From Streptomyces sp. PCS3-D2 (GTDB lineage Bacteria; Actinomycetota; Actinomycetes; Streptomycetales; Streptomycetaceae): a DNA stretch of 64,000 bases. Under the pieces are notes generated by a model, which was given only the letters and a program-made list of their open reading frames with translations, had not been told where the DNA came from and ran no database searches. Made by a program: the position numbers and the translations under genes. Positions 2,998 to 16,108 of this stretch are shown here, one piece after another. The number at the start of each line of letters is the position of its first letter. The stretch's first letter is position 1. Location: the NCBI RefSeq assembly GCF_000612545.2, contig NZ_CP097800.1, positions 1,612,001-1,676,000 on the forward strand, in the 5' to 3' direction.

Positions 2998-4356
2998 ATG
3001 TCCGTCACCCGACGCAGCCTGATCGCCGCCGGCGCGATCACCTTCAGCGGAGCTCTGGGCGCGCTGTTCGCCGGCGGCTCCCCCGCCTCGTCCCGGGCGG
3101 CGCGCGCCGGCGGCGGGTACGGGCCGCTGCTCCCCGACCCGCGCGGGCTGCTCGACCTGCCCGCCGGGTTCGGCTACCGGGTGCTCTCGCGGGCGGGCGA
3201 CCCGATGCGCTCCGGTGAGGGCGCCGTCCCCGCCCACTGCGACGGCATGGCCGCCTTCGACGCAGGGGGCGGCCGGGTGCGGCTGGTGCGCAACCACGAG
3301 AACAGGGCCGGCGCCGCCCTGCGGGTGCCCGCCGTGGCGGGGCTGACGTACGACCCTGGGGCGCTCGGCGGCTGCACGGCCCTCGACCTCGCCCCGGACG
3401 GGCGGGTCACCGGCGAGCGGGTCGCCCTCGCCGGCACGGCGGTCAACTGCGCGGGCGGGCGCACCCCCTGGAACACCTGGCTGAGCTGCGAGGAGACCGA
3501 GGACCGGGCCGGTACCTCGGGCTACGAGCGCGACCACGGCTACGTCTTCGAAGTGGACCCGGCCCACCCGCGGCGCACCGGCGCGGTGCCGCTGACCGCC
3601 ATGGGCCGCTTCGCGCACGAGGCCGTCGCCGTGGACCCGTACCGCGGGGTGGTCTACGAGACCGAGGACGCCTTCGTGCGGCCCTTCGGGCTGTTCTACC
3701 GCTTCCTGCCGGCCCGGCCGCTCGGCGCCGCCGGTTCGCTGCGGGCGGGCGGCGCCCTGGAGGCCCTGCGGGTCCCGGGTGTAGCGGACCTTGCGGTGGT
3801 GGACGAGCCCGGGGCCGAGTTCCCGGTGGAGTGGGTGCCCGTACCGGACCCGTCGGCGGCCGTCACCCCGATCCGGCACCAGGACTTCGGGGCGGGCGGC
3901 ATCACCCACGCGCAGAAGCTGGAGGGCTGCTACTGGGGCGGCAACGGCGTGCACTTCGTGTCCAGTTACGCCCGCAGGGGCGAGGGCGCACCCGCCGACC
4001 ACCACGGGCAGGTGTGGTTCTACGATCCGGGCCGGGCCCGGCTCCGGCTGGACGTGCTCTTCGGGCCGGCCGCGGACGTACAGCTGCCCGGGGACTCCCC
4101 CGACAACATCTGCCTGGCCCCGGATGGCGGGCTGATGGTGTGCGAGGACGGCGGCGGGGCGCAGTACGTGTTCGGGGTGACGGCGGGCGGCGAGGTCTAT
4201 CCGGTGGCCCGCAACGCCGACGACATCGGCGGACCGGGGGCCCCGGAGTGGGGAGAGTTCGCCGGGGTCACCTTCTCCCCCGACGGGCGGACCATGTACG
4301 TCAACGCCTACGCACCGGGCACCACCTTCGCTGTCACGGGTCCCTGGCGGCGCTGA
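2998..4356 (+). CDS. PhoX/DUF839-family phosphatase, Tat-exported
   Basis: 452 residues starting M-S-V-T-R-R-S-L-I-A-A-G, a twin-arginine export signal followed by an Ala/Gly core. The body matches the DUF839/PhoX family of calcium-dependent, iron-containing alkaline phosphatases. Visible family-type stretches are H-E-N (about 98), S-C-E-E-T (about 163), H-E-A-V-A-V (about 209) and the late D-N-I-C-L-A-P-D-G-G followed by V-C-E-D-G. The protein is expected to act outside the membrane, releasing phosphate from organic phosphoesters; the role is by family. The cofactor Glu/Cys residues were assigned by eye only. No recognisable PHO box was found directly upstream. Confidence 0.82.
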   Translation: MSVTRRSLIAAGAITFSGALGALFAGGSPASSRAARAGGGYGPLLPDPRGLLDLPAGFGYRVLSRAGDPMRSGEGAVPAHCDGMAAFDAGGGRVRLVRNHENRAGAALRVPAVAGLTYDPGALGGCTALDLAPDGRVTGERVALAGTAVNCAGGRTPWNTWLSCEETEDRAGTSGYERDHGYVFEVDPAHPRRTGAVPLTAMGRFAHEAVAVDPYRGVVYETEDAFVRPFGLFYRFLPARPLGAAGSLRAGGALEALRVPGVADLAVVDEPGAEFPVEWVPVPDPSAAVTPIRHQDFGAGGITHAQKLEGCYWGGNGVHFVSSYARRGEGAPADHHGQVWFYDPGRARLRLDVLFGPAADVQLPGDSPDNICLAPDGGLMVCEDGGGAQYVFGVTAGGEVYPVARNADDIGGPGAPEWGEFAGVTFSPDGRTMYVNAYAPGTTFAVTGPWRR

Positions 4357-11966: not shown

Positions 11967-13262
11967 ATGGAGCCCATGGCACACCTGGGGGTGGGCATCG
12001 GCTGGCGGCCGGAGATCGCGGATGCGGTCGAACGGCTGCACGGCCTGGACTGGGTCGAGGTGGTGGCCGAGAACATCTGCCCGGGCCACCTGCCCGAGGC
12101 TCTCGGACGGCTGCGCGAGCGGGGCACCCGCATCGTGCCGCACGGGGTGTCGCTCGGCCTCGGCGGGGCCGACCGCCCGGATCCGCAGAAGCTCGCGGCG
12201 CTCGGCGAGCGGGCGGTGGCGCTGGGGGCGCCGCTCGTCACCGAGCACATCGCCTTCGTACGGACCTCCTCGCCGGTGCTGGAGGCCGGGCACCTGCTGC
12301 CGGTGCCGCGCACCCGCGACGCACTGGACGTGCTCTGCGAGAACGTACGGATCGCGCAGGACGCGCTGCCGGTGCCGCTGGCGCTGGAGAACATCGCCGC
12401 GCTGTTCTCGTGGCCGGGCGAGGAGATGACGGAGGGGCAGTTCCTCACCGAACTGGTCGAGCGGACCGGGGTCCGGCTGCTCGTCGACGTGGCCAACCTG
12501 CACACCAACCGGGTCAACCGGGGCGAGGACCCGACCGCCGTCCTGGACGCGATCCCGCTGGAGGCCCTGGCGTACGTGCACGTCGCGGGCGGCATCGAAC
12601 GGGGCGGCGTGTGGCACGACACCCACGCGCACCCCGTACCGCCGGTCGTCCTCGCGCTGCTGGCCGAGCTGCGCTCCCGGGTGGAGCCGGCGGGCGTCCT
12701 GCTGGAGCGGGACGACGATTTCCCGCCCGAGACGGAGCTGGCGGCCGAACTGGCCGCGATCCGCCAGGTCGTGACGGCCGACCGGACGGCCCCGGCGGCA
12801 TCCGGGGCCGAGCCGGGAGCCGTCCAGGAACTCCCGGGGCAGGGAGCCGGCGAGGCCACGCGGACCCGCGTGGCACTGGGACAGGCGGCCCTGCTGTCCG
12901 CGCTCGTGGCCGGGACCCCCGTGCCCGAGGGCTTCGACCGTGCGCGCATCCGCGTGCAGGCGCGGGCGCTGGCCGCCAAGCGGGCCGATGTGGTCGCCAA
13001 GGTGGCTCCGGAACTGCCCGGGATCCTCGGCGGCCGCGAACCGTACCGCACGGCCTTCCTCGGCTACGCGAAGGGCCGCCCCATGACCGCGGGATACCGC
13101 AGGGACGCCCTGGACTTCGCCGAGCACCTGCTGATCCGGGACCTTCCGGCCGACCCGGCCGCCCGGCGCCGGCTCACCGCCTGGTGGCGGGAGCGGGCGG
13201 GGGCGAGGCCGCCGCGCCGTATCGTCCGCTGGGCCCGGGCGCTCACGGGGAGGGCCGCGTGA
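11967..13262 (+). CDS. DUF692 (MNIO-type) iron enzyme with C-terminal helical domain
   Basis: 431 residues from ATG 11967, with GAGGGG upstream. Residues 5-255 form a DUF692 TIM barrel. Candidate iron ligands at family positions are His59, Glu93/His94, Glu141, Asp174, Asn177, His179, His205, the H-D-T-H-A-H run (217-222) and Glu247. Characterised relatives (MbnB, TglH) are multinuclear iron oxygenases that modify cysteines in peptides. Residues ~285-431 form a second, helical Arg-rich domain, perhaps replacing the separate substrate-binding partner such enzymes usually need. The stop overlaps the start of the next gene (GTGA), whose product ends in a Cys-studded tail, a plausible substrate. 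The modification itself is not shown. Confidence 0.85.
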
Positions 13263-14302
13263 ACGTCCTCGCCGCGGCCGTCTGGCTCGCCGTCGCCGTC
13301 TCCTGCGGCCTCCTCCTGCGCGGGCTGCGTCGCGCCCGGCCCGCGGGCGCGGCCCCCTCGGCCGCCCTGCGCGACCTGTCCGAGGCCGCCTTCCTGGTGG
13401 GCGGCCCCGGCACCGTGGTGGACGCCGCGCTCGTCTCGATGCTCGGGGACGGCCGGCTCGTCGTCGGCGGCCCCGGCATCGTCCAGGTGCGCCCGGGAGC
13501 GCGGGCCGGCGGCCCCGCCGAGCGGGCCGTGCTCCAGGCGCATGCCGGAGCCCCCTCGGGCTGGCTCTACCAGGTGCGCTATGCCGCCATGCGCGACCCG
13601 GCCGTGCAGCGGATCGGGGACGCGCTGGCCGCCCGCGGGCTTCTCGCGCCGCCCGGCGGCGGCCGGACCTGGCGCCGCTGGGGGCTGGTCCAGGCCATCG
13701 TGTGCGCGGTCTGGCTGCTGGTCTCGATCCCGCTGACGGTCGTGGGCTTCGCCCTCGACCCCGACCCCGGTGTGCCGTTCATCGCGCTGGTGGCGCCCGT
13801 GCTGCTGGCGGGCATCGTCCTGGGCCTGTTCTGCATGGCCCGCGCCGGGAACCGGATCACCCGGGCCGGGCGGCGGGCGCTGCTCGCCATGCGCTCCGCG
13901 TACGTGAACGACCCCACCCCGCACGTGCACACCGCGCTCTTCGGCCTGCGCGGCCTGCGCGATCCCTTCCTGCGCCAGCAGTTGGTGCCCGCCGCGCGCG
14001 GCACCCGGCTGGCGGCCGCGCAGGCGGGTGCGCGCCCACACCGCCCGGACACCCGCTCGTCCTCGTCCGACTCCTCGCCCGAGCTGCTGCCGGTGATGTG
14101 GTGCGCCACGAGCGACGGGGGCGGCGGGAGCGGTTCGGGCTGCGGCTCCTCCGGCGGCGGCTGCGGAGGCGGTGGCGGATCCGGCTGCTCGGGCGGTGGC
14201 GGTAGCGGTTCGAGCTGTGGCGGCTCCTCCTCCGGTTGTTCGAGTTCGAGCGGCTCCAGCTGTTCGAGTTCGAGCAGCTCCAGCTGCTCCAGCAGTTCCT
14301 GA
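13259..14302 (+). CDS. TIGR04222-type membrane protein with Cys/Ser/Gly tail
   Basis: 347 residues from a GTG overlapping the upstream stop. Membrane segments lie at about 3-22, 141-165 and 171-195, with a soluble domain between the first two. From residue 282 the protein is almost only Gly, Ser and Cys. Cysteines fall at 282, 295, 302, 310, 320, 327, 335 and 343, i.e. gaps of 6, 7, 9, 6, 7 and 7 residues through the tail, shifting from Gly-rich to pure Ser. The fold matches the actinobacterial TIGR04222 'near-uncomplex' family, which typically ends in such low-complexity tails. Strict coupling to the DUF692 gene suggests the tail is modified by that enzyme. Confidence 0.85.
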
Positions 14303-14404
14303 TGCGGCCATAGGGGTCACGGCCGCCGACACCGGCCGGTGATCCTTTACAACCGCGGCGCGCAGGCCTCTCATCGGTTCATCGGATGGAAGGCAGGGGA
14401 CGTC

Positions 14405-16108
14405 ATGCGCACGCCGACCGCACACCACGGGGCCGCCGCGGCCGCACTGCTGCTCGCCCTGTGCGCGCCCACCGCGGTGGCCGCCCCGGCTCCGCGGCCC
14501 CCGCAGCCCCCGCAGCCCCCGGTGGGTACCCCATCCGCCGGCGCCACCGGATCCGCCGACGCCGAGAGCGCCGGAGCCGCCCTCGTGGCCCGCCGCGCGG
14601 CCCTCGCAGCCGCCTCCCGGCGCGGCGGGGCCTCCGGCCTCGACTTCCGTACCTGCCCCGCCGTCGAGGAACTGCCGTCCCGTGTCCGGTGCGCCACCCT
14701 GCGCGTACCGCTCGACTACGCCCGCCCCGACGGCCCGCAGATCTCCCTGACCGTCAGCCGCGCCGCCGCCACCGGGGCCGGCGGCGCGGCCCGCCAGGGC
14801 GCGCTCGTCCAGAACCCGGGCGGCCCCGGAGCCTCCGGAATGCGCTTCCCACTCGTCGCCGGCCTGCCCGGCTGGGAGCGGATCGCCGCCGCCTACGACC
14901 TCGTCGGCTACGCCCCGCGGGGGGTCGGGCGCTCGGCCCCGCTGTCCTGCACGGACCCGGCGGCCCGCCCCCACGGGCCCGTACAGGAACAGGTCCACCC
15001 CTCCCCCGCGTACAAGGCGGAACGGCTGACGCGGGCCCGCGAGTACGCGCGGGGGTGCGCGCGCCGGGCCGGTGCCGCGCTGCCGTACTACACGACGCTG
15101 AACAACGCCCGTGACCTGCACGTGCTGCGGGCCGCGCTCGGCGAGGAGAAGCTGACCTTCATGGGCGCCTCGTACGGCACCTACCTCGGCGCCGTCTACG
15201 CCACCCAATACCCTCGCCACGTCCGCCGGATGGTCCTCGACTCGGCGGTGGATCCCGATCCGCGCCGCGTCTGGTACCGCAACAACCTCGACCAGGCACG
15301 TGGGTTCGAGGGCCGCTGGCACGACTTCCGCACCTGGGTGGCCCGCCACCACGGCACGTACGGGCTCGGCACCACCCCGGCAGCCGTGCAGGCGGGCTAC
15401 GAGCGGGTCCGTGACGCGGTGTCCCGCACCCCGGCGGGCGGCACCGTCGGAACCGGCGAGCTGCGGGCCGCCTTCCTCCAGGCGGCCTACTACGACGACG
15501 TCTGGCCGGAACGGGCCGCGGCCCTGGCCGCCTTCCTGCGCGGGGATCCCTCACTGCTGGCCGCCCAGGCCACGCCCGACCCGGCGACGGCGGCCGCGGC
15601 CGAGAACGCGACGGCCGTCTACACGGCGGTGCTGTGCAACGACGCCTCCTGGCCGGCGGACTGGGAGACCTGGGACCGCGACAACACCGAGCTGGCGCGA
15701 ACGGCCCCCTTCGAGACCTGGGCCAACGCCTTCCTCAACCTGCCGTGCGCGTCCTGGCCGGTGTCCGGGCCGCGCGCGCCCGTGGCGGTGGGGGCGCAGC
15801 CCGAGCGGCTGCCGCGGACCCTCGTGGTCGCGGCGGAACGGGACGGCGCGACGCCGTACCCGGGCGCGCTGGAACTCCAGCGGCGGCTCGGCGCCGGGGC
15901 GTCACTGGTGACGGAGACGGGGGCCGGTTCCCACGGAGTCGTCGGCGGACGCAACGGCTGTGTGGACCGGCATGTGGAGCGGTATCTGCTGACGGGCGCC
16001 ACCCCGGGGTGGCGCGCCACGTGCGCGCCGCATCCGGAGCCCGCACCGGTGTCGCTGGACGACGGGGCGGCGGGCGCCCGCAGGGCGCTGCTGCCGCCGG
16101 TCGTCTGA
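14405..16108 (+). CDS. Secreted alpha/beta-hydrolase, TAP-like exopeptidase
   Basis: 567 residues from ATG 14405. A Sec signal peptide (A-A-A-L-L-L-A-L, cleavage near A-V-A-A) precedes a Pro/Ala linker. The hydrolase core has the oxyanion stretch N-P-G-G-P-G-A-S, the nucleophile elbow G-A-S-Y-G-T (about 260), an Asp in a V-V-A-A-E-R-D-G strand and a late S-H-G histidine. It ends with the TAP C-terminal domain, including paired Cys. Family members are extracellular tripeptidyl or prolyl aminopeptidases, with a few acting as esterases. It lies about 100 nt after the Cys-tail gene but has its own spacing and is probably separately transcribed. Confidence 0.82.
   Translation: MRTPTAHHGAAAAALLLALCAPTAVAAPAPRPPQPPQPPVGTPSAGATGSADAESAGAALVARRAALAAASRRGGASGLDFRTCPAVEELPSRVRCATLRVPLDYARPDGPQISLTVSRAAATGAGGAARQGALVQNPGGPGASGMRFPLVAGLPGWERIAAAYDLVGYAPRGVGRSAPLSCTDPAARPHGPVQEQVHPSPAYKAERLTRAREYARGCARRAGAALPYYTTLNNARDLHVLRAALGEEKLTFMGASYGTYLGAVYATQYPRHVRRMVLDSAVDPDPRRVWYRNNLDQARGFEGRWHDFRTWVARHHGTYGLGTTPAAVQAGYERVRDAVSRTPAGGTVGTGELRAAFLQAAYYDDVWPERAAALAAFLRGDPSLLAAQATPDPATAAAAENATAVYTAVLCNDASWPADWETWDRDNTELARTAPFETWANAFLNLPCASWPVSGPRAPVAVGAQPERLPRTLVVAAERDGATPYPGALELQRRLGAGASLVTETGAGSHGVVGGRNGCVDRHVERYLLTGATPGWRATCAPHPEPAPVSLDDGAAGARRALLPPVV

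Follow-up and report, generated by a model that had tools for sequence, protein, structure and literature searches.

What does a DUF692-type oxidase do to a membrane protein whose gene overlaps its own? In the window, by which we mean the whole 64,000-nucleotide stretch of Streptomyces DNA analyzed, the two genes share four nucleotides (Table 1), as had been noticed originally, with the GTG at 13259 serving as start codon of the second, whose product (T1) ends in a Gly/Ser tail dotted with cysteines. By analogy with characterized systems, this tail is probably modified by the MNIO (DUF692) enzyme. Our main reading, to which we give a rough probability of 0.55, is that a cytosolic, partner-fused MNIO would oxidize the tail cysteines of T1 to metal-binding heterocycles, and that another substrate would take their place in part of Streptomyces. 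The gene pair is a real and conserved system, and the central hypothesis is one already published: the idea of the tail as an MNIO substrate is not new, since Antoine et al. 2025 (PMC12452194) described TIGR04222 proteins that neighbor MNIOs and carry Ser/Gly tails with scattered Cys, and proposed, as a hypothesis, that subsets of them are MNIO substrates. Those clusters involve the same two families and the same Cys-rich Ser/Gly C-termini as ours; we add the built-in partner, the probable cytosolic location of the tail, and the tail-less lineages.

Table 1. Features of the MNIO/TIGR04222 locus, in window coordinates
Feature	Coordinates	Strand	Evidence or remark
Remnant of PTH2-like gene, 31 codons	11725..11820	+	gene precedes MNIO in many relatives
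MNIO (DUF692) oxidase with fused partner domain, 431 aa	11967..13262	+	PF05114 match
MNIO catalytic TIM-barrel domain, residues 8-269	11988..12773	+	
Partner (PME-like) helical domain core, residues 299-388	12861..13130	+	fused and split forms in relatives
GTGA overlap of MNIO and T1 genes	13259..13262	+	
TIGR04222 membrane protein (T1), 347 aa	13259..14302	+	TIGR04222, 140 bits
TIGR04222 domain, residues 8-233	13280..13957	+	
Gly/Ser tail with eight Cys, predicted disordered and cytosolic	14102..14299	+	
Exported TAP-like alpha/beta hydrolase	14339..16108	+	syntenic in 18/22 Streptomyces loci

The first product matches the PF05114 profile (E 2.8e-78, 263 bits vs. a cut-off of 25) over residues 8-269, that is, across the TIM barrel, which places it in the MNIO superfamily, and its fold matches those of TglH and MbnB (AlphaFold model of the fused chain: pLDDT 84.8, pTM 0.83). 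The His/Glu/Asp ligand set originally ascribed to this enzyme held up: none of the ten ligand-type residues (H59, H94, E141, D174, N177, H205, D218, H220, E247 and D249) varies, either among the 57 sampled MNIOs or among 81 from a second set. Identity with the bufferin/oxazolin maturase equivalogs was considered and rejected, as both NCBIfam cut-offs were missed; the best-scoring model, BufB, reached 183 bits where 310 are needed, and HvfB 148 bits where 360 are needed. The closest named relatives of the enzyme belong to S. amritsarensis, S. virginiae and their group. A PADLOC run returned no match. Separately, a second and distinct MNIO class (~360 bits to PF05114) was encountered in loci L116 (genome G230) and L117 (G211) and in several other genomes; L116 and L117 have neither a partner domain nor a TIGR04222 neighbor.

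Beyond the barrel, the AlphaFold model has an extra helical domain (residues ~296-411), for which the original prediction had proposed that it stands in for the usual MNIO partner. On comparative sequence grounds it is indeed that partner, because the same domain is found either fused to the enzyme (30 of the 57 sampled actinobacterial MNIOs) or encoded by its own ORF immediately downstream (24 of the 57, starting 24-462 nt after the MNIO domain). A helical domain directly after or together with the MNIO, the arrangement by which PME-type 2 partners are recognized, thus accompanies 54 of the 57 fetched MNIOs; it was present at every one of the 42 MNIO loci where a TIGR04222 protein was found, and fused in all 80 Streptomyces loci. 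Sequence searches placed the domain near no solved structure: its profile found nothing among PDB sequences, an earlier PDB sequence search had given chance matches only, and the rows of the fold comparison did not extend over it. PF09836 (DUF2063) matched 2 of 31 partner-domain members weakly (best E 0.013), hhalign against the NGO1945/TglI DUF2063 domain was also weak (E 0.019, probability 2.5), and true DUF2063 is near-absent from the phylum sample (1 of 296 above the cut-off, 3 of 296 at E<=0.001).

Several known systems resemble this arrangement in part. In TglHI of P. syringae, TglI is reportedly a separate protein and the substrate a peptide, whereas here the partner is fused and the candidate substrate is a membrane protein. 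The pairs HvfB-HvfC and BufB-BufC likewise combine an MNIO with a helical partner and a Cys-rich substrate; their substrates, however, are exported precursors, whereas the candidate here is an integral membrane protein of 347 residues, and the enzyme falls short of both family cut-offs as noted above. An engineered HvfB-HvfC fusion, enzyme then partner, is described as active, and the partner as required for the active diiron state, in the available part of PMC13419390; that engineered order is the natural one here. MovX and ChrH also carry an added domain in the MNIO chain, described in the available parts of PMC13419390 and PMC12452194 as a C-terminal RRE/winged-helix domain in MovX and an unknown domain in ChrH, but the domain here differs in also occurring as a separate ORF after the MNIO. 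The available portion of PMC12452194 predicts that at least 10% of TIGR04222 clusters contain a PME-type 2 partner and treats many clusters as apparently without partner genes, in contrast to the 42 of 42 loci with the domain here, fused or just downstream; partner-to-MNIO fusion goes unmentioned in that portion.

T1 belongs to TIGR04222 ('near_uncomplex'; NCBIfam) with E 8.7e-41, its score standing well over the cut-off of 43, and has that domain's layout of TM1, a helical domain that includes a small beta hairpin, TM2, TM3 and C-terminal helices. Its AlphaFold model (pLDDT 80.3 overall) becomes disordered from residue 285 (pLDDT<50). Foldseek gave no match to this model at E<=0.001; the likeness to TolQ/ExbB in the top rows (E 0.7) was dismissed, only the general layout being in common. 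The cysteines of T1 lie at 16, 149 and 192 and, within the tail, at 282, 295, 302, 310, 320, 327, 335 and 343. The seven originally listed at 295-343, with gaps of 6-9 residues, were correct as far as they went, with Cys282 omitted; that residue sits in a W-C-[A/G] motif that opens the tail in 43 of 45 T1 relatives (those with at least four tail Cys; 5 of 50 T1 were dropped, of which four are truncated or lie at a contig end). Among these 45, the low-complexity tail varies from 4 to 11 Cys. Compared with shuffled tails, the window's tail has its cysteines at more regular intervals (p 0.0015). Within Streptomyces 6 of 8 tails were regular at p<0.02 and 2 were not; outside it, only 7 of 25 were regular at p<0.05. 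Slippage in the repetitive tail could contribute to such regularity. A profile search for the tail in 24 Streptomyces genomes gave zero matches and was uninformative, since it missed even the window's own tail.

Do Cys tails go with MNIO? In a sample of 246 class-level genomes, TIGR04222 matched (E<=1e-3) in 91, of which 69 were above the cut-off, and MNIO in 58. We analyzed 87 TIGR04222 proteins, mainly above the cut-off, nearly all matches below it being left out, as were 10 further MNIO match places (second copies or partial, with two full length, G245:C142 and G124:C216). Outside Streptomyces, a Cys-rich Gly/Ser tail was present in 26 of 28 MNIO-adjacent TIGR04222 proteins vs. 1 of 19 from MNIO-free genomes (25-residue criterion; Fisher test, P = 7e-10, where the genomes are not independent, because the tail label, defined as at least three tail Cys, requires 13 changes along the tree vs. 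29 when labels are shuffled). The corresponding counts were 25 of 28 vs. 0 of 19 with a 20-residue criterion and 25 of 28 vs. 1 of 19 with 30 residues; these three settings are given because the criterion was loosened after the result of the first, a 45-residue window that missed short tails (29 of 50 adjacent proteins vs. 0 of 19), had been seen. The sole tail in an MNIO-free genome (L141) is probably mis-framed rather than real, its frame being a long read-through. Where the MNIO lies elsewhere in the genome, 5 of 18 TIGR04222 proteins have Cys tails (5 of 12 outside Streptomyces). With Streptomyces included, the adjacent fraction falls to 34 of 50, since 14 of 22 MNIO genomes in a 24-genome Streptomyces sample have no T1 beside the MNIO. 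The association of Cys tails with adjoining MNIOs thus holds outside Streptomyces and is frequently broken within it. As an observation apart, L129 (G034, ~3020-4036) has a TIGR04222 Cys tail in frame with a piece of the partner domain, as would result from deletion of an MNIO lying between the two; the genome has only a partial MNIO elsewhere.

These counts bear on the simplest alternative, namely, that MNIO and T1 are merely syntenic and the Cys/Ser/Gly tail is an unmodified, slippage-prone spacer or a thiol-rich anchor. The variability of the low-complexity tail would suit a spacer, as would the fast evolution of T1 (dN/dS 0.72) and the separability of the two genes at Streptomyces loci (below). 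Against this, it is the tail cysteines themselves, beyond mere gene presence, that associate with MNIO, their spacing in Streptomyces is regular, and the two genes overlap. We consider mere synteny improbable.

The side of the membrane on which the tail lies bears on how a cytosolic iron enzyme could reach it. The original prediction had an envelope protein with an exposed tail; the charge distribution runs against this. In 50 Streptomyces T1, K+R averages 3.36 after TM1 and 3.50 before TM2, drops to 0.26 in the loop between TM2 and TM3, and reaches 4.06 after TM3, the count after TM3 exceeding that of the loop in all 50; for T2, a paralog introduced below, it does so in 33 of 42, with 8 ties (42 of 45 T2 were counted, shorter rows being dropped). 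Read by the positive-inside rule, this makes it probable that Streptomyces T1 has its N-terminus out and its helical domain and tail in the cytosol, where access of the enzyme to the tail poses no problem. We limit the claim to Streptomyces, since a cruder hydropathy count outside the genus was mixed (cytosolic tail in 14 of the 26 rows with Cys tails and in 15 of the 21 without). An opposite arrangement, with the tail outside the membrane and modified before or during export in the manner of bufferins, agrees with the periplasmic placement of TIGR04222 tails from predicted topology, and with the extracytoplasmic action of bufferins, in the available part of PMC12452194; with the charges of T1, and of most T2, pointing to the cytosol, we regard it as unlikely for Streptomyces.

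Streptomyces MNIOs stand beside two TIGR04222 paralogs that form separate clades on the tree, the Cys-tailed T1 and the tail-less T2. Among 80 loci, 27 have T1 only, 23 both, 22 T2 only and 8 neither (at least two of the last, L200 and L222, being truncated at contig ends). MNIO occurs in 22 genomes of the 24-genome sample, with T1 adjoining in 8, T2 only in 12 (one, G187, inferred from contig ends) and no TIGR04222 match in 2. On the MNIO tree a single clade of 25 holds most T1-less rows, and the few remaining ones are dispersed. At T2-only loci all ten ligand positions of the enzyme are intact, and it evolves there under purifying selection, with a median pairwise dN/dS of 0.13 vs. 0.20 at T1 loci (these groups, as in the T2 comparison below, are different clades, with clade uncontrolled). 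At L230:2036-2875, a T1 has a short, Pro-rich, Cys-free end in place of the tail, and the adjoining fused MNIO is intact. The enzyme, intact and constrained without T1, therefore has a use without the Cys tail, and the original picture of one enzyme for one tail is not supported. Judging from these locus patterns, in part of Streptomyces the fused enzyme must have at least one further substrate.

Two candidates present themselves. T2 has conserved cysteines, in a CxxxC where TM1 ends and in TM3 (present in 41, 40 and 43 of 45), and a dN/dS of 0.31 at T2-only loci vs. 0.51 where T1 is present. The other is a six-Cys mini-protein of 59-63 aa (CxxC, CPVC and a C-terminal ACSG; e.g. L064:465-653 in G050), found no more than 5 kb from the MNIO in 12 of the 14 T1-less MNIO genomes of the 24-genome sample, and in 144 of 191 MNIO-positive vs. 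0 of 9 MNIO-free Streptomyces (ancestry and synteny uncontrolled). Its only Pfam match is weak (Cys_rich_CPCC, E 0.14), and it could simply be a zinc ribbon. It is conceivable that the main substrate of the enzyme is T2, the mini-protein or a non-Cys residue, T1 being a fast-evolving side substrate or accessory. The retention of a constrained MNIO where T1 is lost, the conserved T2 cysteines, the lower T2 dN/dS at T2-only loci and the distribution of the mini-protein all fit such a scheme. Yet T2 and the mini-protein are each absent from some MNIO genomes, the mini-protein from the window's own genome and from 2 of the 14 T1-less ones; the dN/dS groups carry the clade effect already mentioned; and the Cys tail is common to almost all MNIO neighbors outside Streptomyces. 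We regard this demotion of T1 as rather doubtful.

Under our main reading, the first gene would encode a single-chain MNIO-plus-partner oxidase, a cytosolic enzyme whose target would be the Gly/Ser/Cys tail of T1, the product of the overlapping gene. The tail would be held by a three-helix membrane anchor and reached after insertion, with no modified segment exported; the partner domain would hold the substrate and support the cofactor state. The likely reaction, by analogy with bufferins, HvfA and MbnA, would be a four-electron oxidation converting several tail cysteines to thiooxazoles (or oxazolone-thioamides), a change of about -4 Da per Cys, and yielding a multi-site ligand for copper or a soft metal that stays tethered to the inner side of the membrane. 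In some Streptomyces this oxidase would act on another substrate. It is from such analogy that we infer substrate, product, metal and function alike. A more specific version, in which the enzyme installs a series of metal-binding heterocycles along the cytosolic tail, making T1 an inner-face copper or thiol sensor or buffer, and also modifies the paralog without a Cys tail in species from which the tail has been lost, is a tentative proposal. If the tail is modified, MNIO chemistry would extend to integral membrane proteins, with a protein rather than a peptide as product. MNIO matched in 191 of 200 sampled Streptomyces genomes (some matches partial or of the second class), so the candidate enzyme-substrate system is near-universal in an easily manipulated genus, whose species with and without the Cys tail offer a ready comparison for finding the real substrate. 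We take SCO6045 to be the DUF692 gene of S. coelicolor. A redox-regulon paper (PMC4991794, available in part) tabulates it once, as 'hypothetical protein', with values of 1.59 and 3.01.

Among neighboring genes, the window strain seems to have lost a PTH2-like gene, since its close relatives (L157-L161) carry such an ORF directly upstream of MNIO; the order peptidyl-tRNA hydrolase, MNIO, TIGR04222 in Table 2 of PMC12452194, in its available part, resembles this Streptomyces arrangement. The TAP-like hydrolase is probably outside the pathway. For copper, nothing local proves a role; the sole local hint, in many relatives, is a marginal DUF305 similarity (E 0.09) of a DUF4142-like neighbor, a gene that our neighborhood survey did not find next to the window pair. 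That DUF4142-like protein is encoded near MNIO in 39 of 80 Streptomyces loci (L064:4926-5705 and relatives), usually upstream at loci of T1 type and downstream at most loci of T2 type, with several loci having both.
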